A stretch of DNA of 38,639 nucleotides from assembly GCA_903824675.1 (NCBI GenBank), contig CAIJXV010000045.1, positions 1 through 38,639 of the forward strand. Reading direction: 5' to 3'. The DNA comes from an uncultured bacterium. Lineage in GTDB: Bacteria > Verrucomicrobiota > Kiritimatiellia > CAIKKV01 > CAIJXV01. Each line of letters starts with the position of its first letter. The first letter of the stretch is position 1. Position numbers and translations under genes: made by a program. Shown here one piece after another: positions 1 to 30,767 of this stretch. The notes under the pieces are model-generated. The model searched no databases and was not told where the DNA came from. It was given only the letters and a program-made list of their open reading frames with translations.

Positions 1-402
1 GTGGATGCCTTGGCGCATGCATGGGCGCGCCAAAATGGGCTGCGAATTATTCCGTTCGGAGCCTATGCCGCGAATCTGTTGGGTTTGTCAACCCAAGTAC
101 CGGCGAAATATGTGTACTACACGAATGGCCGTACCCAACAGATAAGGCTCGGCGGTTCGGATGTGCGGTTTCTCAATCGTGGGCCCAAAACCATGGAGGT
201 CAAGGGCCCCCTTGCGGCGCACATTTTCCAGGCCTTGCGGTACCTGGGGAAAAACCGGGTGTCCCCGGATGTTATCGCGCGGTTACGACGGTTGACTAGG
301 CCCCAGGATCGGGCTGACATCAAGCGGAATCTGAAACACGCAACCGCCTGGATGAAGCCGATTCTCAAAAGCGTACTACAAGAGGAATCCGTTCATGGAT
401 AA
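1..402 (+). CDS. AbiEi-type antitoxin (DUF6088-like), 5' end outside the window
   Basis: The reading frame is open from the first base, so the 133 visible residues are probably the C-terminal part of a longer protein. The GTG at position 1 is unlikely to be the real start. The protein is basic (many Arg/Lys) and resembles the C-terminal region of the type IV antitoxins found upstream of AbiEii toxins, with a segment PAKYVYYTNGRTQQIRLG followed by a helical tail. In that family the antitoxin represses its own promoter through an N-terminal winged helix, which would lie left of the window. Its stop (400-402) overlaps the start of the next gene by 8 bases, the usual arrangement of an AbiE pair. 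The assignment rests mainly on this context plus moderate sequence resemblance. Confidence 0.7.
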   Translation: MDALAHAWARQNGLRIIPFGAYAANLLGLSTQVPAKYVYYTNGRTQQIRLGGSDVRFLNRGPKTMEVKGPLAAHIFQALRYLGKNRVSPDVIARLRRLTRPQDRADIKRNLKHATAWMKPILKSVLQEESVHG

Positions 403-1432
403 CGTCGCTCAAGCAACGGCAGCAGACCAGAGCGCCCTTTTTCGCCGGGTGGAAGCGGGGTCAGATTGTAGGTGTCATGCGTCTATTATTGAAAAAGACT
501 TCTGGGTCTGCTGGACTTTGCGGCGGATCTTCGAAGTCCTTCAATTCCGTCCGCATCTGATCTTCAAGGGCGGCACGTCGCTGTCCAAGGTCTACCGGGC
601 CATTGAACGGTTTTCGGAAGACGTGGACCTCTCGTTGAGTCGTCGCGACTTGGGGTTTGCCGACGACCGGGATCCGGAGCAGGCGGGTATCAGCAAGAAG
701 GAGGCCCGACGGCGGCTGGATGCGCTGGTGTTGGAATGCCAGAAGGTCGTCCGTGAGAAGCTGCTGCCGGAATTGCGTCTGGATTTTGCCGCCGTGCTGG
801 GCAAATCAGGCTGGTCGGTGGAACTGGACCCCGCCGACCCGCAGACGGTGATATTTACCTATCCGTTCACTGAGGTATCGGGGGCCCGTCCGTATGTCCG
901 TCCGGCGATTCGGTTGGAAATGGGAGCGCGCTCTGACGATTGGCCGGCAGCGGATGCCGAAATCACGCCCTACGCGGCGGAGACGTTTCCCGGTTTGTTT
1001 TCCATCCCTTCCTGCCGGGTTCGCACGTTGGCGGCGGAGCGGACCTTCTGGGAAAAGGCGACATTGCTTCATGCCGAGTGTCACCGGCCGTTGGACAAAC
1101 CATCCCGCGAGCGGCTGTCGCGGCATTACTACGACTTGTACCGGCTGGCCCAGCAGTCGATTGCGGAGCAGGCGTTGAAACAGCGTGATCTCCTGGAGCG
1201 GGTTATCGTGCATAAGAGCTTTTTCTTTGCCCAGACTTGGGCGCATTATGAAACCGCCCGACCCGGTACGTTTCGCTTGCTGCCAGAGATGGCTCGGATG
1301 GATGCGTTGCACCGGGACTACCGGGCCATGGAAACCATGATATTCGGCGAGGCTCCCAAGTGGGACGACATCGTCCACGAGTTGGAGCGGTTGGAAGTAA
1401 GAATCAACAATTTGGGCGGGGGGCCGAGGTAG
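395..1432 (+). CDS. AbiEii-type nucleotidyltransferase toxin
   Basis: A 345-residue protein with the nucleotidyltransferase signature of AbiEii toxins. KGGTSLSKVY (about residues 58-67) is followed by ERFSEDVDLSL (71-81), which gives the G-[GS]-T-S and D-x-D metal/nucleotide-binding motifs. A later RHYYDLYRL segment (about 243-251) matches the conserved C-terminal helix of the family. Known members transfer nucleotides to RNA, arrest growth and can abort phage infection. The start lies inside the end of the antitoxin gene, so the two are probably translationally coupled. Length and motifs look intact, so the toxin should be functional if the antitoxin is complete to the left. The stop is TAG. 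Immediately downstream is restriction-system debris, which suggests a defence-gene region that has been rearranged. Confidence 0.88.
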   Translation: MDNVAQATAADQSALFRRVEAGSDCRCHASIIEKDFWVCWTLRRIFEVLQFRPHLIFKGGTSLSKVYRAIERFSEDVDLSLSRRDLGFADDRDPEQAGISKKEARRRLDALVLECQKVVREKLLPELRLDFAAVLGKSGWSVELDPADPQTVIFTYPFTEVSGARPYVRPAIRLEMGARSDDWPAADAEITPYAAETFPGLFSIPSCRVRTLAAERTFWEKATLLHAECHRPLDKPSRERLSRHYYDLYRLAQQSIAEQALKQRDLLERVIVHKSFFFAQTWAHYETARPGTFRLLPEMARMDALHRDYRAMETMIFGEAPKWDDIVHELERLEVRINNLGGGPR

Positions 1433-4025: not shown

Positions 4026-5522
4026 ATGCGTCGCACGATCCTGTTAACGATTCTGCTGGGTGCCGGCCTTCTCCTGGCCGGCGTACCCTCTTCGGCCTTC
4101 GCTTTCAACGTCGACAAAATCCGGCAATCGGTCGTCAAAATTTTCGTCTCGGTTCAACGGGAGGATTATTCCCAGCCCTGGCAACGGCGCGGGTTGACCG
4201 GCGGGACGGGAAGTGGTTTTTTTATCGGTCCCCGGCGAATCCTCACGAATGCTCATGTCGTCTCCGACGCGCGTTTCATTGAAATCCAACGGGAAAGCGA
4301 TTCCCGCCGCTATAATGCCCGGGTTCTCTTTATTGGACATGATTGCGACCTCGCCCTGCTCGAAATCGATGACCCCGCCTTCGGACCCGATGCGCCGCCC
4401 CTCGCCTTCGGCTCCAGCATGCCCGACCTGAATGATGAAGTCAGCGTCATCGGCTACCCCATGGGCGGCAACCGGCTGTCCATCACCCGGGGCGTGGTAT
4501 CCCGCATCGACCACAACCTCTACTCCCATAGCGGGGTGGATGCCCACCTCGTCATGCAGGTCGACGCCGCTATTAATCCGGGGAATAGCGGAGGCCCCAT
4601 TCTTTTCAAAAACCGGGTTGTAGGGCTCGCGTTCCAGGGTATGCTTGACGCGCAAAACATCGGGTATGCCATTCCCCTCCCGGTCATTTCCCACTTCCTC
4701 GACGACATTGCCGACGGCCAATATCACGGCTATCCCGAACTCGGAGTCGCCTGGCTCAACACCCGGAATCCCGCGCTTCGTAAGGATTTGGGCCTCGCGC
4801 CGGATCAAGGGGGCGTCGTAATAACCTCTATTGATCCTTTTGGGTGTGCCGCTCCCCTCCTCCAATCCGGCGATGTTCTATTAACCATCGAGGGGCACCC
4901 GATCGATGATGACGGCACCATCCGGATCGGCGGCACACCGGTGGAATTCACTGAAATTCTCGAACGCCGGCAATGGGGAGCGTCCATCCGTTGCAACCTC
5001 TGGCGCAACCGCAAACCCCTTACGCTCGATCTGCCGCTCCGCAACCTCACCGACCCCTTTGCCTATCGATTCCTTTATGACACCCCGCCGCCCTATGCCG
5101 TGGTCCAGGGCCTCGTCTTTCTACCCATCAGCCGTAATCTGCTCGCCGGACTCGGATCGGATCTCGGATCAGCCGATACCCATGCGCTCTATTATGTCTC
5201 CCAATTCGCCAAAATCGACGGACTCCACACCCATCGCACCGAGTTCGTCGTCCTCGCCAGCCGCCTCCCGCATCCCGCCAATACCTATCAACAAAATTTC
5301 ATCAACCACATCGTCGATCAGGTCAATGACCAACCGGTCGGTTCCCTCGCCGACCTGGTCCGCGCCCTCGACCATCCCCTTCGAGGCTTCCACGTCATCC
5401 GATTTCTCGCCGATCCACAACCGTTGATCCTCGACGCGGAGGTGGCCCAAAAAGCCGATCGAGATATCGCCGCAACCTACCGAATCCCGGTTCTGCATTT
5501 CACCGGGGAGGCGGGCCCATGA
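4026..5522 (+). CDS. HtrA/Deg-like secreted serine protease with PDZ-type C-terminus
   Basis: A 498-residue protein starting with a clear signal peptide (MRRTILLTILLGAGLLLAG, cleavage near SAFA), hence periplasmic or envelope-located. The chymotrypsin-fold triad is intact: His77 in LTNAHVV, Asp108 in CDLALLE, Ser188 in NPGNSGGP. Two PDZ-like regions follow: about 255-350 (VVITSIDP, GDVLLTIEGHPI) and 370-490 (IVDQVNDQPVGSLADL). The PDZ-like architecture resembles plant/bacterial Deg proteins with a second divergent PDZ rather than E. coli DegP. Such proteases degrade or remodel misfolded envelope proteins. ATG 4026 is preferred because the signal peptide starts there, although the Shine-Dalgarno is weak; an upstream in-frame ATG at 3945 exists. 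The stop overlaps the next start (ATGA). Confidence 0.92.
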   Translation: MRRTILLTILLGAGLLLAGVPSSAFAFNVDKIRQSVVKIFVSVQREDYSQPWQRRGLTGGTGSGFFIGPRRILTNAHVVSDARFIEIQRESDSRRYNARVLFIGHDCDLALLEIDDPAFGPDAPPLAFGSSMPDLNDEVSVIGYPMGGNRLSITRGVVSRIDHNLYSHSGVDAHLVMQVDAAINPGNSGGPILFKNRVVGLAFQGMLDAQNIGYAIPLPVISHFLDDIADGQYHGYPELGVAWLNTRNPALRKDLGLAPDQGGVVITSIDPFGCAAPLLQSGDVLLTIEGHPIDDDGTIRIGGTPVEFTEILERRQWGASIRCNLWRNRKPLTLDLPLRNLTDPFAYRFLYDTPPPYAVVQGLVFLPISRNLLAGLGSDLGSADTHALYYVSQFAKIDGLHTHRTEFVVLASRLPHPANTYQQNFINHIVDQVNDQPVGSLADLVRALDHPLRGFHVIRFLADPQPLILDAEVAQKADRDIAATYRIPVLHFTGEAGP

Positions 5523-7003
5523 ATCTCCGTTTTCTCCCGCTATTCCTTCTGGGTCTGCTCTTCGGAATAGGGCCCGGTCAATTGCACGCCCAAATTCCCT
5601 CGCCCGAAAAAAGTGTCGTTGAAATCGTCGTTAGCGCCCAGACGGTGGATCCCTCCCTCCCCTGGCAACGCAATCCCCCCGTCGTCCAATCCGGTTTTGG
5701 CGTGGTCGTCGCCTCCAACCGTTTCCTCGTTCCCGCCGATCTCGTCAATCACGCGGTCATGGTCGAAATCCGCCCCGCCCGCGATGCCCGTAAATTTCCT
5801 GCCCGCATCCTCCGCGTCGATCCCCAGGCGGGGGCTGCGCTCCTCGAATGCCGCAATGATCGCGATGCGGCCGATTTCCGTCCCCTGCCGCTCTTCCGTT
5901 CCGTTCGCTCCACCGGCGACGTCGCCCTCGTTCAATTCAATTCCCAAGGCGATATTCAAACCGATCGCGGCCAGATTCTCGCCGCCGCGGTTCAGGCCCT
6001 GCCCGATTCCGGATCGGCCCTCCTGATGATGCGGGTCCTCACCAGCCTCAACGCCGGTGGACGCGGAGCCCCGGTATTCATCGATGACCGACTGGCGGGA
6101 ATCGTCCTTCGCTTTGAGCGCGGCAATCAAACGGCCCAGGTCCTTCCCCTGGCCGCCTTGGATCACTTCCTGAACCCCGCCCCCTATCCCGGTGTCGCCA
6201 ATGCCGGATTCCTTTGGGAACCGTTGGTCGATCCCGTCCGGCGCCGTTTCCGCGGAATCGACATCCCCGACCGGGGCGTCGAAATCGTCGATACGCTCCC
6301 CGGCTCCGGCGCCGCTGAAACCCTTCTGCCCGGCGATGTCCTCCTCTCCCTCGATGGTTTTCCGATCGATGCCCAAGGGTACTATCCCGACCCCACGCTC
6401 GGCCGGCTCCTCCTCCCTCACCTCGTCAGCGGCTACCATCAACCCGGGGATTCCATCGGCGCCCAAATTGTCCGGCAAAACCAGACCACCAACCTGCTCA
6501 TCCGTCTGGCCCGCCGGGATGACCGCTTGAATCTGATCCCCGAAAATCTAACGTTGTCCCGGCCCGATTACATCGTGGAGTCCGGTTTCATTTTTCGCGA
6601 ACTCGGCGGTGATTATCTCCGCCAGTACGGGGCGCAGTGGATGGCCAAGGCCAATCCCCGTTTTGTACACCTCTACCTCACCCACGCCCAGGACCGGGAC
6701 GGCGAAAACGACAAGATTGTCATCCTGGTCGGCATCCTCCCCGATGCGGTCAATATCGGTTATCAGCATCTGCGCGACGGCCTCGTCCTCTCCGCCAACG
6801 GCCAGCCCATCAAATGTCTCGCCGATCTCGCCCACCAGATTCAAAAAGACGGCGGGCTCCGTCGCCTGCGGATCCACAATCTCGAGCAGGATCTGGTCCT
6901 GGACCCCGACCATCGCGTGGAAGCCAACCGGCGAATCGCCCAAACCTATCGGATTCCCGTTCTGCTCAGCATCGACTCCGAGGAGGAAGACACCCGTCCA
7001 TGA
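5519..7003 (+). CDS. Secreted catalytically dead HtrA paralogue (pseudoprotease)
   Basis: A 494-residue protein with signal peptide (FLPLFLLGLLFGIG) that aligns along its whole length with the preceding protease, including SLPWQRN versus SQPWQRR and the shared ending ATYRIPVLHF versus QTYRIPVLLS. All three catalytic positions are replaced: His by Asp74 (FLVPADLV), Asp by Gly105 (AGAALLE), Ser by Arg182 (NAGGRGAP). The PDZ-like half is well conserved (PGDVLLSLDGFPIDAQG, then GLVLSANGQPIKCLADLA). The frame is undamaged over almost 1.5 kb, so this is a maintained non-enzyme rather than a decaying copy. It overlaps both neighbours by ATGA. A plausible role is partner, inhibitor or substrate adaptor of the upstream protease; that is inference. 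Confidence 0.88.
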   Translation: MNLRFLPLFLLGLLFGIGPGQLHAQIPSPEKSVVEIVVSAQTVDPSLPWQRNPPVVQSGFGVVVASNRFLVPADLVNHAVMVEIRPARDARKFPARILRVDPQAGAALLECRNDRDAADFRPLPLFRSVRSTGDVALVQFNSQGDIQTDRGQILAAAVQALPDSGSALLMMRVLTSLNAGGRGAPVFIDDRLAGIVLRFERGNQTAQVLPLAALDHFLNPAPYPGVANAGFLWEPLVDPVRRRFRGIDIPDRGVEIVDTLPGSGAAETLLPGDVLLSLDGFPIDAQGYYPDPTLGRLLLPHLVSGYHQPGDSIGAQIVRQNQTTNLLIRLARRDDRLNLIPENLTLSRPDYIVESGFIFRELGGDYLRQYGAQWMAKANPRFVHLYLTHAQDRDGENDKIVILVGILPDAVNIGYQHLRDGLVLSANGQPIKCLADLAHQIQKDGGLRRLRIHNLEQDLVLDPDHRVEANRRIAQTYRIPVLLSIDSEEEDTRP

Positions 7004-8265
7004 CCGGTCTCCTCCTCCTAATCATCGCGCTCATCGGGGTCACGGTCCTCGAGATCCTCGCCGATGCGCTCAACTTGATTTCCGCCCGCTCAGGGCTGCC
7101 CGCGGAATTCAGCAGCCAGTGGAGCGCCGCCGATTATGACCGGGCCACCGCCTATCGGCAGGATAAAACCCGCCTCCGACTGCTGGTCGATTCCGTCAAT
7201 CTCCTGGGCTTGGTCCTCGTTCTGGTAGGCGGCCTCTTCGGCTTTCTCGACCGGCATCTGGCCGCACTTTGCGCCCATCCCATCGGTCAGGGTTTGCTCT
7301 TCATGTCCGCCTGTGCCATGGTCGCCTCGGTGCTGGATCTCCCCTTCTCCCTTTATCAAACCTTCGTCATCGAACGTCGCCACGGGTTTAACCGGATCAC
7401 CCCCCGGACATTCATCCTCGATCTCGTCAAAGGGTGGGTTTTGACGGCCGTCCTGGGGTTACCGCTTATTGCCGGTGTGTTCTGGTTTTTCCTCGCCTTC
7501 CCCCATTCGGCCTGGCTCTGGGCCTGGGGCTTCACCAGCCTCATCCAACTCTTTATCCTCTATCTCGCGCCCGTGGTCATTGCCCCTTGGTTTAATCGAT
7601 TCACCCCACTGCCCGAGGGCGACTTGCGCGACCGGATCGCCGCCTATGCTGCCCGTGAGAATTTCCGAATCCGGGGAGTCTATACGATGGATGGATCCCA
7701 ACGCTCCACGAAGGCCAATGCCTATTTCTGCGGGTTCGGCCGCTTCCGCCGGATCGTTCTTTTCGACACCCTGATCCAGAAATTCACCCCTGACGAAATT
7801 CTCACCGTGGTCGCCCACGAAATGGGGCATTTCAAACTCCGCCATATTCCCATCGTCATTGCCCAGGCGCTTGGCGTTAACGCCATCACCTTCCTGATCC
7901 TCGCCGGGTGCATCGGCTCCGCCCCCATCGCCCACACCCTCGGCTTCGACCATCCGTCCCTTCACGCCGGCTTGATGGCGACCCTCATCTTCCTGATTCC
8001 CGTCACCCTGCCCCTCAAGCTCCTCAATAATCTGCTCTCCCGACGCCATGAATACCAAGCTGACGCCTATGCCGCCCAAACCACAGGACAGCCCGAGATT
8101 CTCGGCCAGGCCTTGATCAAGCTGACCCGGGATCACCTGGCCGATTTAACCCCCCATCCCCTCAAGGTTTTATTGGATTACAGCCATCCCCCAATCCTCG
8201 CCCGCTTGAAAGCGCTGGCCCATCGAACCCAGCCCCCTGCATATCCGTCATCCCGTTCCCCCTGA
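7000..8265 (+). CDS. Membrane M48-family metalloprotease (Ste24/CAAX protease 1 type)
   Basis: A 421-residue polytopic membrane protein. An N-terminal membrane segment and a Ste24-type N-terminal domain (FVIERRHGFNRITPRTF) precede the zinc site HEMGH (His273, Glu274, His277), with the third ligand Glu351 in RRHEYQADAYA. Further hydrophobic segments lie at about 60-110, 150-200 and 285-345. In eukaryotes Ste24 cleaves prenylated proteins; bacterial homologues are envelope quality-control proteases. ATG 7000 overlaps the upstream stop (ATGA) with AGGAGG at 6981, so the three protease-type genes look translationally coupled. A longer open frame from 6637 is antisense-like Arg/Pro-rich sequence and not used. 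It converges on the giant gene with only 13 bases between stops. Confidence 0.92.
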   Translation: MTGLLLLIIALIGVTVLEILADALNLISARSGLPAEFSSQWSAADYDRATAYRQDKTRLRLLVDSVNLLGLVLVLVGGLFGFLDRHLAALCAHPIGQGLLFMSACAMVASVLDLPFSLYQTFVIERRHGFNRITPRTFILDLVKGWVLTAVLGLPLIAGVFWFFLAFPHSAWLWAWGFTSLIQLFILYLAPVVIAPWFNRFTPLPEGDLRDRIAAYAARENFRIRGVYTMDGSQRSTKANAYFCGFGRFRRIVLFDTLIQKFTPDEILTVVAHEMGHFKLRHIPIVIAQALGVNAITFLILAGCIGSAPIAHTLGFDHPSLHAGLMATLIFLIPVTLPLKLLNNLLSRRHEYQADAYAAQTTGQPEILGQALIKLTRDHLADLTPHPLKVLLDYSHPPILARLKALAHRTQPPAYPSSRSP

Positions 8266-8278
8266 AATACATTCCCCA

Positions 8279-11200
8279 TCAAGAAATCCCCAACTCCCGT
8301 CTTCTGGCGAAAGCACGGACCCCCAGGGCCACCAGCCCCCATAACACCGCAAACCCGAGTCCGCCGATTCCCGACACTTTGATCCAGGACGCCGATTTCT
8401 GATTCGCCGCCTGGAATTCGACGGTCATGGGTTTCCCCACCTCGGTCTGAAGCACCTGTTGAAAACTCAACTGGATTCCCCGCCGGGGAAGATTGATCCG
8501 CAACGGCAAACTCTTGCTCTCCGCCACTTCCTGGGCCGCCTGGACTTTGTCCCATTGAAGCTCGGCGTCTTGCGCCAGAAGGGCCTGCTGGGAAGCGCCC
8601 AACTGGACCGGGGCGTTCATTCCCGATGGCCGCCCCCCTTGTCGTGCCTGAGGCTGCTCCGTCTCCACAACTTCGGAATTATCCGCCACAAACTGTTGCT
8701 GGGCATTCACCAGGTTGAGAGCCTGGGCCTTCTTGACCTCGCCCTCCAGGCGACCCAAATCATTTCCCATCTTGCCTTTGGACCGCCGTGCGCGCTGATA
8801 ATAGTCATTCGCCTCGCGCAACTTGCCGCCGCTCAAATTACTCTTCACATTCCAGAGATCGGATTTGAGGGTGGCTTCCTCCTTGACCTGCGCGGCCTTC
8901 TCATCCTTTTGATACGCATCATAACTGTAGGTTGCGCTGACCGGCACAAGATTTCGCGTCAGCACAACCTCCGGAGTCGTTTTCTTCATCGATCCATCAA
9001 ATCCGCTGAACAGGTAGTCGGCCGGCAAAAACAGGTCCCATTGCGCATTCTTGAAGGGAATGTCCAGGGCCGGAGAAATCAGGTTCACCTTCCCCTTTCG
9101 GCTCGGAAATGGAGTCGCACCCACAAAGGTCAGTTCCACTTCCACCGGCAGGTCTACGTCGGTCCTCTCCATCGGGATCAGCAGTTTGCCGTTTTTACGA
9201 CTGGGCCGGACGGGCTGGCCCCCCACAAAGGCGGACCAAACTTGGGCGGTTTCAGGCAATTCCATCTCCAAATACTGACGGGCATTATTACGGACACTCA
9301 AGGCCATCTCGGTCATGATTTGTCCGTCTTCAGCCACCACCGTGGTCAACCGAACGTTTTCGGCCAGGGCCTGCAACACCTCGGCATCCTCAAATTGCTC
9401 AACCTTCAAACCCAGTTTATAACCCGGGCGCAAATAGCGGACGACCAAAACCGGCGGCTCGGCCGGCGTGCCCGCCCAGGACGGAACATCGTTTTTGTCC
9501 AGCCGCTGAAGATCGGACGAAAGGTTATGGGGGTCCAGACGGAGGCGCACGGGGACTGAAATGGCCAGAATTCCCGTCTCCCGTTCGACGCCCATCACTT
9601 CCACGCCGCCAAAATCAAACCCGCCCTCCTTGATCTGCCAGGGGAGATCCCACGTGGCCGTTAACAGGTAAGTCCCCCGCACCTTGTTTTGCAGTTCGAT
9701 GGTCCATTCCCGATTTTTTTCATCGTAGTCTTTCCGCCGGATATCGCGCCCGGTCACATCCACATTCCGATAAGCCGCGGGGACCCGCAACCGGAACAGG
9801 CGGGTCGGGGCATTCAGGATTTCATACCGGACCTGACTTCGTCCGTTCACCAGATTTTCAGTCAAAGAGGCCAGGGTTACCACTTCCGCCCGAACCCAGG
9901 CCTGCATGCTTTCCGTCGCGAGAGTCAGCGTCCACGGGGACTGAAGTCCATCACCGGCATCGCCCGGCAAAATTTTGAAGCCCAACCCGGCGCCCACCAT
10001 TCCGGCCACCGCGGCCACGGGAATTTCCGATAGGCCTTCAAAGCGCTCGCTCTTGATTTGGATCCCTTCCTCCGCCGATACGGATATCACGCCGCTGAGT
10101 TTCTGGATTCCCAGGGGCTGAGCGCCGGTCAGATTCAGCGAAGCGGGTAACGGATTAAGGAATCGGACCAATTCAAGATTGAGTCGATAGGCCCCCTGCG
10201 CCCGCTCCTTAAGGGTCACCTCGACCACGGGCCCGCCGCCTGACTCCCTGCCATTCTTCAAAACCCACTGGGACAGGTTGGTCCCGGTCAATTGTTCCAG
10301 ACGGTAGCCTTCCGGCAATCCAATCTGGAGTGTAAAGGTACCCGCGCGTTTGATGGTGTATTGGATCTCGGCATCCAGGGCGATCTGGTCGGATCCGATT
10401 CGGAAGACATTCCGAACGACGGCTTCGATTTGCGGTAACACGGGGTCCAGTCGAACCCTTAACCCGAAGTCCGGTTTCAAAAACCGATAGGCCGCCGCTA
10501 TGACCGGTTGGGTAGAAAGGAGAGGAACAGACTTGTCTTCGCCCCCCCCCGCCGGCGACGCATCCTTCAAGGCTTGATTAAATTCCGCCGAATCAATTTT
10601 CTGCACGCTGTCCTGGGTTTCATAGGATAAACTCACCTCGTCCTGTGCCATGAAACCCACCAAGCCGGTTTCGCGGGTGATATCGATGGGATGCGGAATT
10701 TCGATTTTCACTGCGGTCGATACCACGCCCTGCGGCTTTTCGGTTTCAACCAGCAGACGATAGCGACTGGCAATCCCCTTCATCAATTCGACCGTCAGAA
10801 TATCCTTTTCAACCGTCCAGGTCCGGATCGTTTGACCTTCGACCCTCATCAGCCGTTGTCCGGCGGGAAGCCGAACCCGAAGGGTCTTCAATTCGCCCTG
10901 CATAACCTGATAATCCAGGGTTGCCGCCACCTGCAACGCCCCGCCGTCAAAGGTCACCCGCGCCGCGTTCTGACAGAATAGGGTGGCCGCGATATCGGCT
11001 GCCCGGATGATCTTGGGCGTCCACGTCATCTCGAGTCGATTGGTATTGCTGAGCACCGCCTCCACCCGGGTCTCGCTGGAGACCGGGAGCGCGCCCGGAT
11101 CCTGCCCGCGGGGCGGCAGGTAGGTCAGCGCGATGGCGCCGGGAATTTCAACCGTGGCATCGGGCTCATCCAGCGTGATCAATGCCCTGGACAACAGGGC

Positions 11201-14200
11201 ATCGGGCAATCCGAATTGAAAACGGCGTGCGGGGGTATCTCCCTGGAGTTTAACCAGGTAACGCAGTTGGACTTTGACCGCTCCTTTACGTGGAATGAAC
11301 ACTCCAATCTGACCTTGGTTTCGAACCAATTTCACCGCCGGCCGGTTGAATCCCCAGCCCTGGCTCGATTTAACCTCAAACCCCTGCAAGGCCACATCGT
11401 TCCCCATCAGGAAAACGGTCTGATTGTCCCGCTCGGTTTGAATATCAAAAGTCGCATCAAAGTAGCCAATCCGCAGGGCGGATTTTGGGTCAGCGGTCCG
11501 GATCTCACCTTTGTAAACCGCGGAAAGAAGGGAGGCGGAAGCCGGTTCAACCGGCAGCGGGATCGGCTCGACCGCCAGCGCGGCCTGGGCCAGACAGACG
11601 GCGACCAGAAGCGTGGTGAGGATGGGCGGGACCGGAGGCGGGGTAAGGGGAGGTTCGGCTGCCGGCGGGCATTTCCCTTCCGACTTCGGTAAGGATTTGA
11701 TCTTAAAACAAACCCAAACCACGATGGCGATCGGAATCGCAAAGCCGATAAACACGGCACCCCATGCCAATAGGTCGCCGAGGAGGCGATATTGGATCAG
11801 GCAACTTATCAGGCCCCCCGCCATTAAGGCCAGACCAAGGGCTAGGACCAGACTGTGTCGATCTGCGCGCCGCCACTGCCAGACCATCAGCAGCAAACCC
11901 ACCAGGATGGCCACGCCCTGCAATCCGCTCCGAATCCGTTCATGAGCCTTCCGTTTCATCGTCAAGGCCTGAATGGTTAAGAGCTCGTTCCGGACATTTA
12001 AAACCTTTGTGAATACATAGCGCTGACCGGTCCGGGGAATTTCAATCCGGAGCGATTTCAAACCGGCGGTAACCGGCGATATAAAAGCATGAGACCCCGG
12101 CTTGGCGAGAACCATTTGACCCACGGCCCCTGAACCGCGAATATCGTCGAGGTTACCGTAAACCAACGGACTGTCGCTGGCCTCCTTACCCGACACGAAT
12201 CCTCCCCCGGAACCACCCAAATCCCGGGGTTCAGCCTCCGCGTCAGGTGCCGCAACCGGCTCGGGAGGAAGAACCACTTCGGCCATCGCAGCCCGTGAGC
12301 GGCTTCTCGCACCCGTTATGCTGGGAATCGCGATGGCAAGCAACAGGAGCACCGCCAACGCCCCTCCGATGGCCAGAAGACAACCCCGATACCCCTTCCG
12401 CGCAATAACAAATCCGAGGATCACCAACACCCCCACCAGCACCACCCCGACGGCCAACGGAAAGATCAAGTCGTCATTCCGCTCGAAGAAACGGACCCAT
12501 TCCCGCCAGGCTTCATAAAAGCCGTAAGTGGTCCCTCGGGCGATGATCATATTTCCTGCAAAGCGCGCCAGCCGGCAATCCTCAGGCACAAACACCTCCC
12601 ACTCGGCATACGTGGTCTGCATGTCGGTCTTCGGCGCCTCTATCCGCACCGGCTGGAACATTTTCTGGCGAATGCCCTCCACCTTCTGGGCATAGACAAT
12701 ATCCACGGCAAAGGCCTGGTCGCGCCGCCCATCGCGCGGGAGGGGAATCAATAACTGGGCCCCTTTCCGCTCGGGCTTGGCCGATTCACCTTTGACATAA
12801 CACGACCAGAAATCCGCTCCTTCCGGCAAGGTGAACATCTGGAATTGACGGTCATTATTCTTGATCATGAAGGACGCCTGCGTCAGCATCTGCCCATCCT
12901 CGGTCAGAACCGTGGTCAATTGCATATGATCAGCGGCCGCGTCCAGGATCGGGAGTTCTTCATAGCGGTTGACCTCCACCGACAGTCCGTACGTCCCGCC
13001 CTGATACCGATAGGCCAGCAAGACCGGCCGGGAAATCAAGGCCCGATCGCTTTCAGATAGTTCGGTTTCATCGATCCGCCGAATCGCATCACCGCCCGGC
13101 ACGGCGTTCAACTTCAGATTGCCGGCGCTGGTAATCGCAATACTCCCGGTCTCCCGCTCGACGCCTTCCGGATGAATGCCACCCACCGGCAAGGTGGCTT
13201 GATGGGGGTCGAATTGATAGTCATAGGTGACCACCAGCGAATACCCACCCCAGACCTTGTCCTGCAAGCTGATCACCCACGCCTCCCCCTGCAATTCTTT
13301 GCGGCGAATATTCGGCCCCGTAAAATCGACATTTTTCCATAAAGCCGGAACTTGCACGCGAAATTCCTGAACGCCCTGGTTCAAAATGGCATATCGAATG
13401 GTCGCGCTCCCACCCAGGAGTCCGTCGCCGACCGCAATCAGGTTAAACACTTCCGCGGTCACCTTGGGCTGGAGCCGGTCCGCCCGCAACACCAGGCTCC
13501 ATTCGGCTTGCTCGGCCTGATAGGCCAGCGTTGCATCGCCCCGCGACGGCAACAGGGCCACTGAAAGCTCGCGTAATCCCGTCATCTTTTCGGTCACGGC
13601 TTTCAATTGAATGCCACCCGCCGGAACCACACCGATTTGGGCCGTTTCCCGGATGGCGCCCGTCACGCGAATGGCTTCAATCGTCAGGGCTGGCAGGCTA
13701 TTGGTCCCGTCGGTCGGCCGGCGCAGGGCCTGCTCCAGTTGGATATCCAAAGCGCGGGCCCCTAACACCCGGTTCCCGAAATGAATCTGCAAAACCCCTT
13801 TATTCAGTTTCCATTCGGTCACGTCCTCTCCCCGGACCTCCGCCACGACAAACCCCTTGGGCGGATTCAACTCCACCGCATACAATCCCGCCTTTTCAAT
13901 ATTCAATCCCACCAGATGCTGAACCATCACCCGGGCCTCTTCCACCCGTACGGTCACCCGATCATCCGCTGTCACCACCGGCTCGATCCGCCGCAACTTC
14001 AACTTCAACCCGAAATCCGCGGTATGAAATTGATAGGCGGCCACGGCGCCCGCCGCGGCATTGATTTGCCGCAAGCCCGCCGCGGTCTCAGCCTCCACCA
14101 CCACATCTTCGGCCCGCAAGGTCATCCGTCCGGTCTCCCGATCCACGTCCTGGGGATGCGGCAGATCGATGACCACCCCGGCCGCCAGATCGAGAATGGC

Positions 14201-15058
14201 CTGCTCGGTTAGCAGGGTCAGCCCATACGCCTTTTCAACCGGCTTGAGAAATTCAATCGCCAGAATCTGTCCACCCGCTTCCGTCCGGATTTGCCAATCC
14301 CGGATCTCCTCCCCCTGGACTTGCGTCAACGACTGGCCCGCCGGAATCTTGACCACCAATCGGGGCAGAACGCCCTGTAAAATATCGAACTTATAATTCG
14401 AGGTGTACTTCACCACCGTCGGCAAAACCTGCAGGGAGACCCCGACCTCGCTCGTCAGGACGGCCTTCCGGGCCATGTCCATCGCCCGGCTTTGCCATCG
14501 GATGGAGACACGGCGATCGTTCCCCAGAATTCCCCGCACTTGAACCCCGTTCTCCTTGACGGTTTTCTCCACCACAACCCCCGTCAACAACTCCACATCC
14601 AGATCTTTCCCCACCGTTTGGAGATCCACCGAACCCACCACGGCTTCGGGTCCGTTCAATACCACCTGGTTCCAAGGTTCATTGCGGATCACCCGGGCCA
14701 CCAAATCCAATTCCATCTTGAATCGTCCTTCCCGACCGGCAATCAGGCGATAATCCTTACCCGATCGCTCCAGCCGGAAGTCCGGCGGCAAACGGGACCC
14801 CACCACGGTCATTTCACCGGAAAGAATCGTCAGGACTTTGCTGCCCTTGCCGACCACCTCGAGATCCAGGGCCATGGTGAACTGTGCGGTCTGATCCTTG
14901 ATGTTGCCTGAATACTGAACCGTATGAACCGTGATTTCCGGAAGGGCTTGATTGGGATCCGGGGCCGCAACCCCACCCTCCGGCCGGAAGCCCAGCCCCA
15001 GGGCGAAGCCCACGCCAATCCACACCGACACCCTGCGAAGCTGTTGTTTGAAATTCAT
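8279..15058 (-). CDS. Giant envelope protein, internal fusion of two homologous halves
   Basis: A 2259-residue protein of unknown function, starting after AGGAGGAACGGCT with a signal peptide (about 1-32). Half one is beta-rich (about 35-850), then hydrophobic segments near 865-887, 893-916, 1039-1060, 1067-1090 and 1097-1120. A signal-peptide-like stretch (TTLLVAVCLAQAALA, about 1148-1162) opens half two (1165-2259), which ends in a helical region and a final membrane segment (about 2228-2250). The halves align with an offset near 1190: RVQVPALWKNVDFTG/RLRVPAAYRNVDVTG, LTTVLTEDGQM/LTTVVAEDGQI, VKIPAGQSLTQVQG/VRLPAGQRLMRVEG, and GVERETGSIAI/GVERETGILAI. No catalytic motif is visible. A surface or periplasmic structural role is inference. 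The 15059-15255 gap probably carries its promoter. Confidence 0.85.
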   Translation of the reverse strand: MNFKQQLRRVSVWIGVGFALGLGFRPEGGVAAPDPNQALPEITVHTVQYSGNIKDQTAQFTMALDLEVVGKGSKVLTILSGEMTVVGSRLPPDFRLERSGKDYRLIAGREGRFKMELDLVARVIRNEPWNQVVLNGPEAVVGSVDLQTVGKDLDVELLTGVVVEKTVKENGVQVRGILGNDRRVSIRWQSRAMDMARKAVLTSEVGVSLQVLPTVVKYTSNYKFDILQGVLPRLVVKIPAGQSLTQVQGEEIRDWQIRTEAGGQILAIEFLKPVEKAYGLTLLTEQAILDLAAGVVIDLPHPQDVDRETGRMTLRAEDVVVEAETAAGLRQINAAAGAVAAYQFHTADFGLKLKLRRIEPVVTADDRVTVRVEEARVMVQHLVGLNIEKAGLYAVELNPPKGFVVAEVRGEDVTEWKLNKGVLQIHFGNRVLGARALDIQLEQALRRPTDGTNSLPALTIEAIRVTGAIRETAQIGVVPAGGIQLKAVTEKMTGLRELSVALLPSRGDATLAYQAEQAEWSLVLRADRLQPKVTAEVFNLIAVGDGLLGGSATIRYAILNQGVQEFRVQVPALWKNVDFTGPNIRRKELQGEAWVISLQDKVWGGYSLVVTYDYQFDPHQATLPVGGIHPEGVERETGSIAITSAGNLKLNAVPGGDAIRRIDETELSESDRALISRPVLLAYRYQGGTYGLSVEVNRYEELPILDAAADHMQLTTVLTEDGQMLTQASFMIKNNDRQFQMFTLPEGADFWSCYVKGESAKPERKGAQLLIPLPRDGRRDQAFAVDIVYAQKVEGIRQKMFQPVRIEAPKTDMQTTYAEWEVFVPEDCRLARFAGNMIIARGTTYGFYEAWREWVRFFERNDDLIFPLAVGVVLVGVLVILGFVIARKGYRGCLLAIGGALAVLLLLAIAIPSITGARSRSRAAMAEVVLPPEPVAAPDAEAEPRDLGGSGGGFVSGKEASDSPLVYGNLDDIRGSGAVGQMVLAKPGSHAFISPVTAGLKSLRIEIPRTGQRYVFTKVLNVRNELLTIQALTMKRKAHERIRSGLQGVAILVGLLLMVWQWRRADRHSLVLALGLALMAGGLISCLIQYRLLGDLLAWGAVFIGFAIPIAIVVWVCFKIKSLPKSEGKCPPAAEPPLTPPPVPPILTTLLVAVCLAQAALAVEPIPLPVEPASASLLSAVYKGEIRTADPKSALRIGYFDATFDIQTERDNQTVFLMGNDVALQGFEVKSSQGWGFNRPAVKLVRNQGQIGVFIPRKGAVKVQLRYLVKLQGDTPARRFQFGLPDALLSRALITLDEPDATVEIPGAIALTYLPPRGQDPGALPVSSETRVEAVLSNTNRLEMTWTPKIIRAADIAATLFCQNAARVTFDGGALQVAATLDYQVMQGELKTLRVRLPAGQRLMRVEGQTIRTWTVEKDILTVELMKGIASRYRLLVETEKPQGVVSTAVKIEIPHPIDITRETGLVGFMAQDEVSLSYETQDSVQKIDSAEFNQALKDASPAGGGEDKSVPLLSTQPVIAAAYRFLKPDFGLRVRLDPVLPQIEAVVRNVFRIGSDQIALDAEIQYTIKRAGTFTLQIGLPEGYRLEQLTGTNLSQWVLKNGRESGGGPVVEVTLKERAQGAYRLNLELVRFLNPLPASLNLTGAQPLGIQKLSGVISVSAEEGIQIKSERFEGLSEIPVAAVAGMVGAGLGFKILPGDAGDGLQSPWTLTLATESMQAWVRAEVVTLASLTENLVNGRSQVRYEILNAPTRLFRLRVPAAYRNVDVTGRDIRRKDYDEKNREWTIELQNKVRGTYLLTATWDLPWQIKEGGFDFGGVEVMGVERETGILAISVPVRLRLDPHNLSSDLQRLDKNDVPSWAGTPAEPPVLVVRYLRPGYKLGLKVEQFEDAEVLQALAENVRLTTVVAEDGQIMTEMALSVRNNARQYLEMELPETAQVWSAFVGGQPVRPSRKNGKLLIPMERTDVDLPVEVELTFVGATPFPSRKGKVNLISPALDIPFKNAQWDLFLPADYLFSGFDGSMKKTTPEVVLTRNLVPVSATYSYDAYQKDEKAAQVKEEATLKSDLWNVKSNLSGGKLREANDYYQRARRSKGKMGNDLGRLEGEVKKAQALNLVNAQQQFVADNSEVVETEQPQARQGGRPSGMNAPVQLGASQQALLAQDAELQWDKVQAAQEVAESKSLPLRINLPRRGIQLSFQQVLQTEVGKPMTVEFQAANQKSASWIKVSGIGGLGFAVLWGLVALGVRAFARRRELGIS

Positions 15059-26717: not shown

Positions 26718-29700
26718 TTACTGCAGCCGAATCCGATAGAAATAGGGCCCGGCACCCAGGGTCGCATTGTCGGTATAAACATTCATCGGCGCGTGGGCGC
26801 CGATGTTCTGTTGGGTCCAGGTGAAACCCTGGAGTAAATTGGTCGATTTCAACAGGCTGTAGTTCTTCCCGGATACGCTCATCCACGAGAGGACCCACCC
26901 GTTCCCTACCGCGCCGGGCAGGGTCATTCCCAAAAACGAATTTCGATTGGTCGGATCCGTTCCCGCTGCATATTCCTCGACTTCAGACATCCGGTCGCCA
27001 TCCCGGTCCAGTTGGGATGTCAGATTGGTCAGATTATCTCCATAATACCATTCCCACCAGTCCGGCAGTCCGTCGCCATCAGCATCCCCGGTTCCCGAAT
27101 TCCAGGCGATCTGGTCCACCCATCCGGCATCGCTCCCGACGCTCACACTGGAATCCTTGGCGTAGGTCCAGCGAAAAACATGCTCTCCTGGCGGCAAACC
27201 GGCCTGGACCTGTTGCCATCCGGTCATTCCGGTCAGCCCGGAATAGGCCTGCCCGTCGATGGTAAAGATCAAGCCGTCATAATTGGTTTCGGAGGAGCAT
27301 CGCCACCAGAAGGACACGATTCCGGGACCATTGGTCCGGGCTTCAAACCACGCTTGCTGACCAGGGTCCAAGGGTCCGTTCTGGACGGCATCCACCCCAT
27401 CATGGGTGTTGGTGGTCTGCAGGAACCAGGCGGCATCGCCTCCGGCAGTCCAGTCCCAGGCCAGGTAATCGACAGCCGGCCCCACCGAGGCGGCCGAGGG
27501 AGTGAAGTTCAATTGATCCACCCAACCACAATCCAACCCCACACTTTCGCTGTAATCCTTGGAATACAGCCAGATCAACGGGTTGGGCCCGTTGGACAGG
27601 GGCCAGGAAACATGCGCCCAGTCACTCGTTCCGCTGCGATTGGTGACGACCAGGTAGTTCACCGCAAAGGCCAAAAAGTCATAATTCGACTCGGACGAAG
27701 TTCGCCACCAGAAATCCAGCGTGCCGGGCCCGACGACGTTGACGCTGATCGAATTCGTCTGATTATGTGTCAGGGGCCCGCTTTGAGCCGCGTCGATCCC
27801 GTCGTGGGTCGTGGTGCTCTGGCCCAACCAATCGGACGGTCCGATCAGCGTCCACAAATAGCTTTCCGCATCGATTGCTTCTGCCACGGAAATACCGGTC
27901 CCGGGCGTAAACTGCACCTCGTCCAGCCAGGCATAATCCAATCCCTGCGACTCCGTTTCATCCTTGATGTATTGCCAGCGGACATCATAGGTTCCGGCTT
28001 TCAAGGTCAGAATCCATCCTTCCCAGTCGGTTTCGCCGGAGGCATACAATTGGAGTTCATCATTGACGTAAAGCTCGACAAAATCATAGTTGAGTTCGGA
28101 CGATACTTTCCACCAGAAAACCAGGGACCCCGGCCCGGTCACCGTGGCTCGAATCCAGGAAACCTGCCCGTTCGTGATGCTCCCGCTTTGAGCCGCATCC
28201 ACCCCGTCATGAGTGTTGGTGGTCTGAGGGAACCAGACGGCATTCCCGCCGGTAAACCAAACCAGGTTGGACCCATCCAAGGCGGTGGCCAGGGCGGCAT
28301 TTCCCCCGATCACCTGCAGGGATACGGCCAGTGTTCGCGGTGAGTTGGTCGCCATCGGATCAGATACCGTCACCGTCGCCGCGTAAGTCCCTGCGGTCAG
28401 TGCGGCACTGTCGAAATTCAGGAGATGACTGTTATGCGCGCCCGCACTGGTCCCATTGGTCGGACTGACACTCAACCAGGCGGCATTGTCGACGATACTA
28501 TAGACCGAGGTCCCCCCGCCTTTGTTCCAAACCTCGAATGACCCTGCCGCAGCGATTTGCCCCTGAAAAACGGTCTGGGTTATGGCCGTTGCACTCACCC
28601 CCAGGGAGACCGGTAACGTATTCGACACAAAGGTGAATTGGTCCACCCACCCCGCATCGGCGCCGGAGGAAACACTATTATCCTTGATATACAGCCATCG
28701 CAAGGCGTGCGAGCCGGAAGCCAATGATAAATTGATGATTTGCCAGGGTTGTTCACCCGCCAGGGCGCCCACCTGCTCCACCCCGTCGACAAAAAAGCGG
28801 AGATAATCATATTGGGCCTCCGAGGAGACCGACCACCAGAAAGACACATCGCCCGGCCCCACCACCGTCGTCTGGATCCAGTTCGACTGGCTGTTGACGA
28901 GGTGACCGCTCTGGGCGGCATCGATCCCATCATGCGTAACCGAACCCTGGCTGAACCAGGCCGAAGCCCCGCCTCCCGACCAGACCCACGGAGTGGCATC
29001 CACGGCTTGCCCGATATTCGTGCCCTGAACCGTAATGGTGATCGCAACGGTTTGGGGGGAATTCCCGGCGCCCCCGGCGGAGAGGGAGAGAGTCGCCCCG
29101 TAAATGCCGGGTGCCAGGGCGGCGGTGTTGTACTGGATTGAATGGCTGTTGGTTCCTCCCGAACTGCTCCCCGATGCAGGACTGACCGACACCCAGGAGG
29201 CATTGGTGGCAAGGGTATACGATAAGGTTCCGCCCTCAACCCAGACACGCAACAGTTCGCTGGTGGCATTCTGTCCACTATTCACGGTTTGCGCATACAC
29301 ACTGGCATTCCGTCGTATCAACGGCAGACCGGACGACCCCTCAATCGTAAAATCGGCGGTCATGGACTTCGCAGAAGCGGACAGATTGGTGACATAAATT
29401 CCGGTATTGTCGCCGATATAGGAATGGCTGTTAGGCGTTGAAAGGGGCGTGAAGTTTTTTTCCGCCACGTAATAATCACCGGCATCCGCCCACCCATCTC
29501 CGGTCTCGATTTCCTCGAGGCCATCCGCCTCCATCAGCCGGATCAATTTATGCGCGGTGTCGGAATTGTTGTACAAAAAATCCGTTCCCCGCGCGTCCGG
29601 AGTGGCATCCACATGCCAGATCAACATCCCATCCGTCGGCCAGTCGGTGTCGTTCAGGGTCCGATACCGGTTTTCCACCATAAAATACTCGGCATAGGGC

Positions 29701-30767
29701 GCCGATCCGTTGGTCAAGCCCGGCATGATCGCCACGCTATCGGGGTTCTCCGCCAGGGCCCGGATCGCCAATTCCTGCGATCCCGAAGGCACAAATACCG
29801 GCTGAACCCAGTCCAGCATGAACTTGCTGAAGGAGTTGTGGTCCCCCCAATTCCCATCCATCATGTCCAGCCCTCCCACCCCGCCGGGTGGCCCGATCGC
29901 CGGTTTATAATCGTAATAATCGGGAAGACCTAACGCATGTCCGGTTTCATGGATAATGGTATCAGCCGAAAAGGTACTGCCTACCGGACGCGATTCCCAT
30001 TGCCATGAGAAATCATAAAATCGCACCCCATCCCGGGTCAGGTCCGTGAATAATTGCCACTGATAGCCCCACCAGAATCCACTCCAGCCGGTGTCGGGTC
30101 CGGCCCAGATCACGGCGAAATAATCGATCCGGCCATCCCCATTATTGTCGTATTGCGAATAATCATGCGTGCCATCATAAAAATCGACCACTTCCTTGAT
30201 GATCTCGTAGTTGGCGGCATTCCCTTCGCCATACGTGGTCGTGTACCAGCTCCGCGGATGTTGCATCGTGTGCCAGCCCAGGATGTTTCCTTGCAACGTC
30301 AGCTTGCCGTAAGAGGATCGTTCGTAATAGCGGCGCAGGCTTTCCCGGGGATATTCGCTCTGGATTCCATCCCCAAACAGGCGGGTCTCGATCTGTACTT
30401 CGGAATTCACATGCGCCTGATCCGGAAAATCGAGCAGGAACACCAGAAGTTCATTGGTCCCCGTCGTGGGCATCCCCTGCCAATTCGGCAACAACGCCGC
30501 AGCCACTTGCGGACGGGATGAATCATTCAGCGCCCCCGCATCGGTCAGTTTCCTGACCGTCCGCGCCGCCAGGGAGGGATTGACCCGGTGATTGCCGATT
30601 TCCAATGCCCGTACGGTACGATTCGATAATTCCGTAGAACTCAACCCTTTCAGGCTGTCCCGATCAGGCGGCTCCAGGGCCCATAGGAGTCCTCCGCTCA
30701 TGAGAAGCCCCAGCACTCCCTTTATCAGGGTTCGGCCTAATTTATCGGTTCCTCTTAACATAAGCAT
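26718..30767 (-). CDS. Secreted M6-family metalloprotease with BACON-like and jelly-roll-like repeats
   Basis: A 1349-residue exported protein with N-terminal hydrophobic signal (LIKGVLGLLMSGGLLWAL). The M6 peptidase domain (about 80-470) carries the zinc motif HETGHALGLPDYYD at about 271-284, with YFMVENRYR and WHVD downstream. Then follow a BACON-like module (about 486-582), a repeat module (588-714), a second BACON-like module (720-820) and three more repeat modules (826-956, 963-1088, 1096-1224). Each repeat module carries THDG-[IV]-DA-[AV]-Q and FWW-x-[CSTV]-SSE. A calcium-binding-type DGDGLPDWWEW...DRDGDRMSEVEE segment (about 1226-1270) and a C-terminal beta module end it. The modules probably bind carbohydrate or protein surfaces; this is inference. 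ATG 30761 is an alternative start. Confidence 0.88.
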   Translation of the reverse strand: MLMLRGTDKLGRTLIKGVLGLLMSGGLLWALEPPDRDSLKGLSSTELSNRTVRALEIGNHRVNPSLAARTVRKLTDAGALNDSSRPQVAAALLPNWQGMPTTGTNELLVFLLDFPDQAHVNSEVQIETRLFGDGIQSEYPRESLRRYYERSSYGKLTLQGNILGWHTMQHPRSWYTTTYGEGNAANYEIIKEVVDFYDGTHDYSQYDNNGDGRIDYFAVIWAGPDTGWSGFWWGYQWQLFTDLTRDGVRFYDFSWQWESRPVGSTFSADTIIHETGHALGLPDYYDYKPAIGPPGGVGGLDMMDGNWGDHNSFSKFMLDWVQPVFVPSGSQELAIRALAENPDSVAIMPGLTNGSAPYAEYFMVENRYRTLNDTDWPTDGMLIWHVDATPDARGTDFLYNNSDTAHKLIRLMEADGLEEIETGDGWADAGDYYVAEKNFTPLSTPNSHSYIGDNTGIYVTNLSASAKSMTADFTIEGSSGLPLIRRNASVYAQTVNSGQNATSELLRVWVEGGTLSYTLATNASWVSVSPASGSSSGGTNSHSIQYNTAALAPGIYGATLSLSAGGAGNSPQTVAITITVQGTNIGQAVDATPWVWSGGGASAWFSQGSVTHDGIDAAQSGHLVNSQSNWIQTTVVGPGDVSFWWSVSSEAQYDYLRFFVDGVEQVGALAGEQPWQIINLSLASGSHALRWLYIKDNSVSSGADAGWVDQFTFVSNTLPVSLGVSATAITQTVFQGQIAAAGSFEVWNKGGGTSVYSIVDNAAWLSVSPTNGTSAGAHNSHLLNFDSAALTAGTYAATVTVSDPMATNSPRTLAVSLQVIGGNAALATALDGSNLVWFTGGNAVWFPQTTNTHDGVDAAQSGSITNGQVSWIRATVTGPGSLVFWWKVSSELNYDFVELYVNDELQLYASGETDWEGWILTLKAGTYDVRWQYIKDETESQGLDYAWLDEVQFTPGTGISVAEAIDAESYLWTLIGPSDWLGQSTTTHDGIDAAQSGPLTHNQTNSISVNVVGPGTLDFWWRTSSESNYDFLAFAVNYLVVTNRSGTSDWAHVSWPLSNGPNPLIWLYSKDYSESVGLDCGWVDQLNFTPSAASVGPAVDYLAWDWTAGGDAAWFLQTTNTHDGVDAVQNGPLDPGQQAWFEARTNGPGIVSFWWRCSSETNYDGLIFTIDGQAYSGLTGMTGWQQVQAGLPPGEHVFRWTYAKDSSVSVGSDAGWVDQIAWNSGTGDADGDGLPDWWEWYYGDNLTNLTSQLDRDGDRMSEVEEYAAGTDPTNRNSFLGMTLPGAVGNGWVLSWMSVSGKNYSLLKSTNLLQGFTWTQQNIGAHAPMNVYTDNATLGAGPYFYRIRLQ

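Follow-up and report, generated by a model that had tools for sequence, protein, structure and literature searches.

Two overlapping genes in the genome of an uncultured bacterium of the class Kiritimatiellae encode an active HtrA protease and, directly behind it, a full-length paralogue without an active site. This two-gene partnership is ancient and has been kept across the phylum Verrucomicrobiota and in leptospires. The first HtrA gene and its product are here named ACTIVE, the catalytically dead paralogue next to it PSEUDO, and the third gene of the row is referred to as M48.

The analyzed stretch of DNA (38,639 nucleotides, here referred to as the window) is one contig of a source genome of 4.24 Mb which is 96% complete. 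Related genomes of the class are recorded under names such as Kiritimatiellae, Lentisphaerae and Verrucomicrobia MAGs. The coordinates of its features are summarized in Table 1. A preliminary description of this DNA had reported two ATGA overlaps and nearly equal lengths of the two HtrA proteins, and both are found as described. The N-terminus of ACTIVE carries a hydrophobic segment. No further HtrA besides the pair was found when the source genome was searched.

Table 1. Features of the window
Feature	Position	Strand	Remarks
AbiEii-type nucleotidyltransferase (PF08843) and preceding short ORF	1-1432	+	short ORF truncated by the contig end
ACTIVE, Deg9/Deg2-type HtrA serine endopeptidase, 498 aa	4026-5522	+	trypsin-like domain, PDZ1 and PDZ_3; triad
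ATGA overlap, ACTIVE stop / PSEUDO start	5519-5522	+
PSEUDO, dead full-length paralogue, 494 aa	5519-7003	+	GNSGGP lost; PDZ1 and PDZ_3 retained
ATGA overlap, PSEUDO stop / M48 start	7000-7003	+
M48, Ste24/CAAX-prenyl-protease-1-type membrane metalloprotease, 421 aa	7000-8265	+	HEMGH
2259-aa protein	8279-15058	-	apparent repeats and membrane segments
1349-aa protein	26718-30767	-	matches Peptidase_M6 and BACON

Among the other genes of the window, the one for the 2259-aa protein is convergent with M48, and a Pfam search of this protein gave zero matches. The AbiEii-type gene and the short ORF in front of it possibly constitute a type IV toxin-antitoxin pair.

The residues given previously for both active sites were confirmed in the alignment. 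In ACTIVE the triad of His77, Asp108 and Ser188 is intact and located within the motifs TNAHVV, HDCDLALL and NPGNSGGP, respectively. The aligned positions of PSEUDO are occupied by Asp74, Gly105 and Arg182, and a triad is missing. Trypsin_2 and PDZ_3 were detected above the Pfam cut-off in both proteins, PSEUDO reaching 33.6 bits for Trypsin_2 against a cut-off of 27.6. The PDZ1 domains of both remained below the cut-off and are visible by structure (TM 0.84-0.86 to Deg9). The predicted models of the single chains (AF2) had a pLDDT of 83.5 and a TM of 0.84 to Deg9 for ACTIVE, and of 87.4 and 0.86 for PSEUDO, respectively. By sequence as well as by predicted structure the plant proteases Deg9/Deg2 were the best match of both proteins; those of ACTIVE were 5il9, 5ilb and 4fln, with E-values down to 1.6e-77. 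In domain order, triad and GNSGGP motif ACTIVE is a Deg9/Deg2-type HtrA. PSEUDO shares the domain order but has neither the triad nor GNSGGP. Both proteins end in TYRIPVL, as had been pointed out in the preliminary description. This motif is situated where the PDZ_3 region ends and is recurrent in the family, and it does not indicate a special bond between the two copies.

To follow the pair beyond the window we used a sample of 58 genomes of near relatives and a search of 346 genomes of the class. Among the near relatives, PSEUDO orthologues sit immediately 3' of the ACTIVE orthologue, and in the class-wide search PSEUDO was located directly behind ACTIVE in about 50 genomes. The gene ends overlapped in 18 of the 21 class pairs first examined, and no fused ACTIVE-PSEUDO gene was recognised among the matches listed. 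The proposed alignment of the paralogues revealed that the catalytic loss is conserved: an intact triad was present in none of the 50 class PSEUDO copies read, and GNSGGP was likewise absent from all 50. Single triad residues were kept in a few of these copies (Ser in 3/50, His in 5/50). The substitutions at the dead active site differ freely between species, which shows only that catalysis is unwanted. Since dozens of further genomes have the same inactivated paralogue in this position, PSEUDO is not a product of chance.

Downstream of the pair, five class loci carried genes for an unknown membrane-anchored protein, a transglutaminase-like protein, an ABC ATPase and a PF16949 permease; the first of these proteins follows the pair in 11 loci. 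As a conserved downstream partner this permease cluster was rejected, as it is not general and the genome of the window has its permease homologue elsewhere.

Outside the class, a search of 388 genomes of the Verrucomicrobiota yielded about 60 more genomes with two matches. We read 20 of these loci, and 19 contained the tandem pair, with W, Y, F or A in place of the Ser of the dead copy. The twentieth genus has kept both ACTIVE, with its triad intact, and PSEUDO at separate sites, which in a one-contig genome lie about 1.5 Mb from each other. Named records with the pair belong to Verrucomicrobiales, Pedosphaera, an Auribacterota genome, a genome labelled Victivallis and two Leptospiraceae; the loci found in Omnitrophota, Planctomycetota and Desulfocapsa contained a single active gene. 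Within the Leptospiraceae 21 of 22 genomes carried the pair, the first copy being active and the second inactivated in the loci read. Additionally, five Leptospiraceae genomes possessed another tandem pair in which the triad was lost in both copies. One copy of this double-dead pair groups with the active side of the family and the other with the dead side.

Two trees, of 73 and 51 proteins, placed every dead copy on one side of a branch with 100/100 support and united the paired active copies in one clade separate from the single genes. A tree of 45 proteins that included the double-dead pairs resolved the active copies less well among themselves. These unrooted trees assign a single origin to the dead copies. 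Separate inactivations joined by long-branch attraction were considered as well. They are countered by a tree of the PDZ domains, in which the split between dead and active copies was supported by 100/97 and both copies evolve at similar rates, and for the Leptospiraceae, the one family covered by the AU test, by the rejection of a separate duplication (p-AU 3.7e-5). The trees are consistent with vertical descent of the pair and with an old transfer between phyla alike.

The dN/dS ratios were determined by the Nei-Gojobori method for close species pairs, wider comparisons being near saturation. As called for earlier, both copies were compared, and both had low values: 0.156, 0.150, 0.121, 0.124 and 0.066 for PSEUDO and 0.051-0.080 for ACTIVE. 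The protease-like domain of PSEUDO by itself showed a dN/dS of 0.06-0.12. By these ratios PSEUDO is under purifying selection, and together with the inactivation conserved among orthologues they would qualify it as a pseudoprotease. Mean identities of ACTIVE in the class were 65.7% for the protease domain, 52.4% for PDZ1 and 45.6% for PDZ_3; those of PSEUDO were 36.4%, 44.4% and 46.7%, respectively. Within the class, PSEUDO is relaxed in the catalytic domain, whereas its PDZ portion has remained constrained, PDZ_3 as much as in ACTIVE. Distances in ACTIVE and in PSEUDO were correlated between the two matrices (r = 0.92, 0/2000 permutations), which is expected from co-inheritance and a shared species history and by itself does not prove contact. 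The suggestion that PSEUDO is selected for a non-catalytic role is upheld by the ancestral and universal loss of the site, intact frames, low dN/dS and co-inheritance. Conservation across genomes, dN/dS and the universal loss of the site also rule out chance or a recent pseudogene.

Very probably, then, PSEUDO is functional, and the likeliest role is that of a partner subunit. The overlapping translation, the retention of the full fold with both PDZ domains and the loss of catalysis alone would fit a subunit that takes no part in catalysis within a mixed oligomer. We consider it reasonably probable that the pair constitutes a hetero-oligomeric envelope HtrA with PSEUDO as its non-catalytic, PDZ-bearing subunit. 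ACTIVE would provide the proteolytic sites of this two-subunit enzyme; PSEUDO, predicted to retain the Deg9-like fold and the PDZ domains, is unable to cut. Owing to the overlapping genes both proteins would be made at a fixed ratio, and most likely they would join in mixed HtrA oligomers in the periplasm. PSEUDO may set the geometry or the activation state of the assembly and may contribute extra PDZ sites that bind substrates or partners. Physical contact between the two proteins we infer, as we do the geometry of the oligomers, their activation and their substrates. With no other HtrA detected in this genome, the pair probably carries out quality control of the DegP/DegQ type.

A more far-reaching version of the hetero-oligomer reading, which we put forward tentatively and hold to be somewhat doubtful, describes a widespread two-subunit HtrA. 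Such an obligate hetero-oligomer of one cutting and one dead subunit would have been fixed before the Verrucomicrobiota classes diverged and would be shared by Leptospiraceae and Auribacterota. Its dead subunit would determine architecture and substrate choice, and the second pair of some Leptospiraceae, dead in both subunits, would act as a pure binding scaffold.

PSEUDO might instead be an independent periplasmic chaperone or adaptor, delivering or protecting substrates by its PDZ domains outside of ACTIVE oligomers. The PDZ domains of PSEUDO are about as conserved in the class as those of ACTIVE while its protease domain is relaxed, and in some genomes both genes are retained far apart, as this role would allow. 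However, in most genomes the genes overlap tightly and keep a fixed order, which favours a stoichiometric assembly, and the entire HtrA fold is preserved beyond the PDZ domains; we regard an independent role as unlikely. Less likely still, PSEUDO could act as an intrinsic inhibitor, with ACTIVE kept switched off until its release by a signal. A stoichiometric inhibitor would agree with the overlapping expression and with the presence of an inactive homologue that shares the fold, but the sequence gives no pointer to inhibition over activation, and the precedent of MamE/MamO is an activating one.

The preliminary description had further proposed that all three genes belong to a single envelope module, with PSEUDO passing substrates to the M48 protease, as the second ATGA overlap in the genome of the window would suggest. 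The M48 product carries PF16491 and PF01435 as well as the HExxH motif, matches ZMPSTE24 structures and is by these features a Ste24/CAAX prenyl protease 1. Genes of this type were present in 28 of the 58 near relatives, but one adjoins the ACTIVE-PSEUDO pair solely in the genome of the window, and M48 was absent beside the pair in every other locus read. In the pair-bearing genomes of the nearest sample a Ste24-type M48 was mostly undetected or located on a different contig, and within the order the majority of pair carriers had none at the search threshold. Gene order and the pair carriers without a Ste24-type M48 rule out a conserved third partner, and we judge the three-gene module highly improbable. 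An order unique to this genome had been named in advance as speaking against a conserved module; this applies to the three genes, which were not found in conserved order in related genomes, and not to ACTIVE and PSEUDO. M48 lies outside of the conserved unit, its co-transcription here probably being a local accident. That PSEUDO is a duplicate in decay is hardly credible: its active site is free to vary between species, but its frames are intact in dozens of species, its dN/dS is 0.07-0.16 and its origin is one and ancient.

HtrA proteases are usually viewed as homo-oligomers. A dead partner conserved in many lineages suggests that envelope quality control may use mixed machines which are missed by the study of single genes. 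PSEUDO proteins annotated as serine proteases or PDZ proteins would be misdescribed. The double-dead pairs of the Leptospiraceae provide a natural test of the function of an HtrA assembly without cutting.

In the preliminary description such a partnership would be a new kind of module. This is too strong, since precedents exist in MamE/MamO, in plant Deg7 with its inactive domain and in an operon of Leptospira. No paper on a phylum-wide pair was found in a literature search that reached few subscription papers. In Leptospira interrogans two pairs of neighbouring HtrA genes, LIC20143-LIC20144 and LIC11112-LIC11111, were described in an in-silico study of 2020, which proposed a heterodimer for one pair from an operon with ATGA overlap, called the second proteins PDZ-only and cited their detection in transcriptome and proteome (PMC7709667). 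Judged from this description the LIC pairs probably belong to the ACTIVE-PSEUDO family, and the Leptospiraceae partners in our data are, in contrast to "PDZ-only", dead HtrAs of full length with a relationship to PSEUDO.

The pair has the fold of plant Deg9/Deg2 (PDB 5il9, 5ilb, 4fln) and the same succession of a trypsin-like domain, PDZ and PDZ_3. The plant proteins are active enzymes, whereas PSEUDO has no active site and is translated beside an active paralogue. Plant Deg7 likewise combines an active and an inactive HtrA domain working together, the latter reported to take part in trimerization (PMC3473262). Deg7 is however a single chain of about 1,100 residues, whereas the pair consists of two separate, overlapping genes. 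As in the pair, an active HtrA is accompanied by a trypsin-like pseudoprotease in MamE/MamO of magnetotactic bacteria, where MamO promotes proteolysis without a triad: it is needed for MamE-dependent proteolysis and its triad is not (PMC4794232). MamO carries a C-terminal TauE domain and a metal-binding di-histidine and is of separate origin; PSEUDO carries PDZ1 and PDZ_3. Membership of PSEUDO in the MamO family was rejected, since a Pfam search revealed no C-terminal TauE-like domain. The activation of MamE required the TauE domain of MamO (PMC4794232), and its mechanism is therefore not directly transferable to ACTIVE and PSEUDO.
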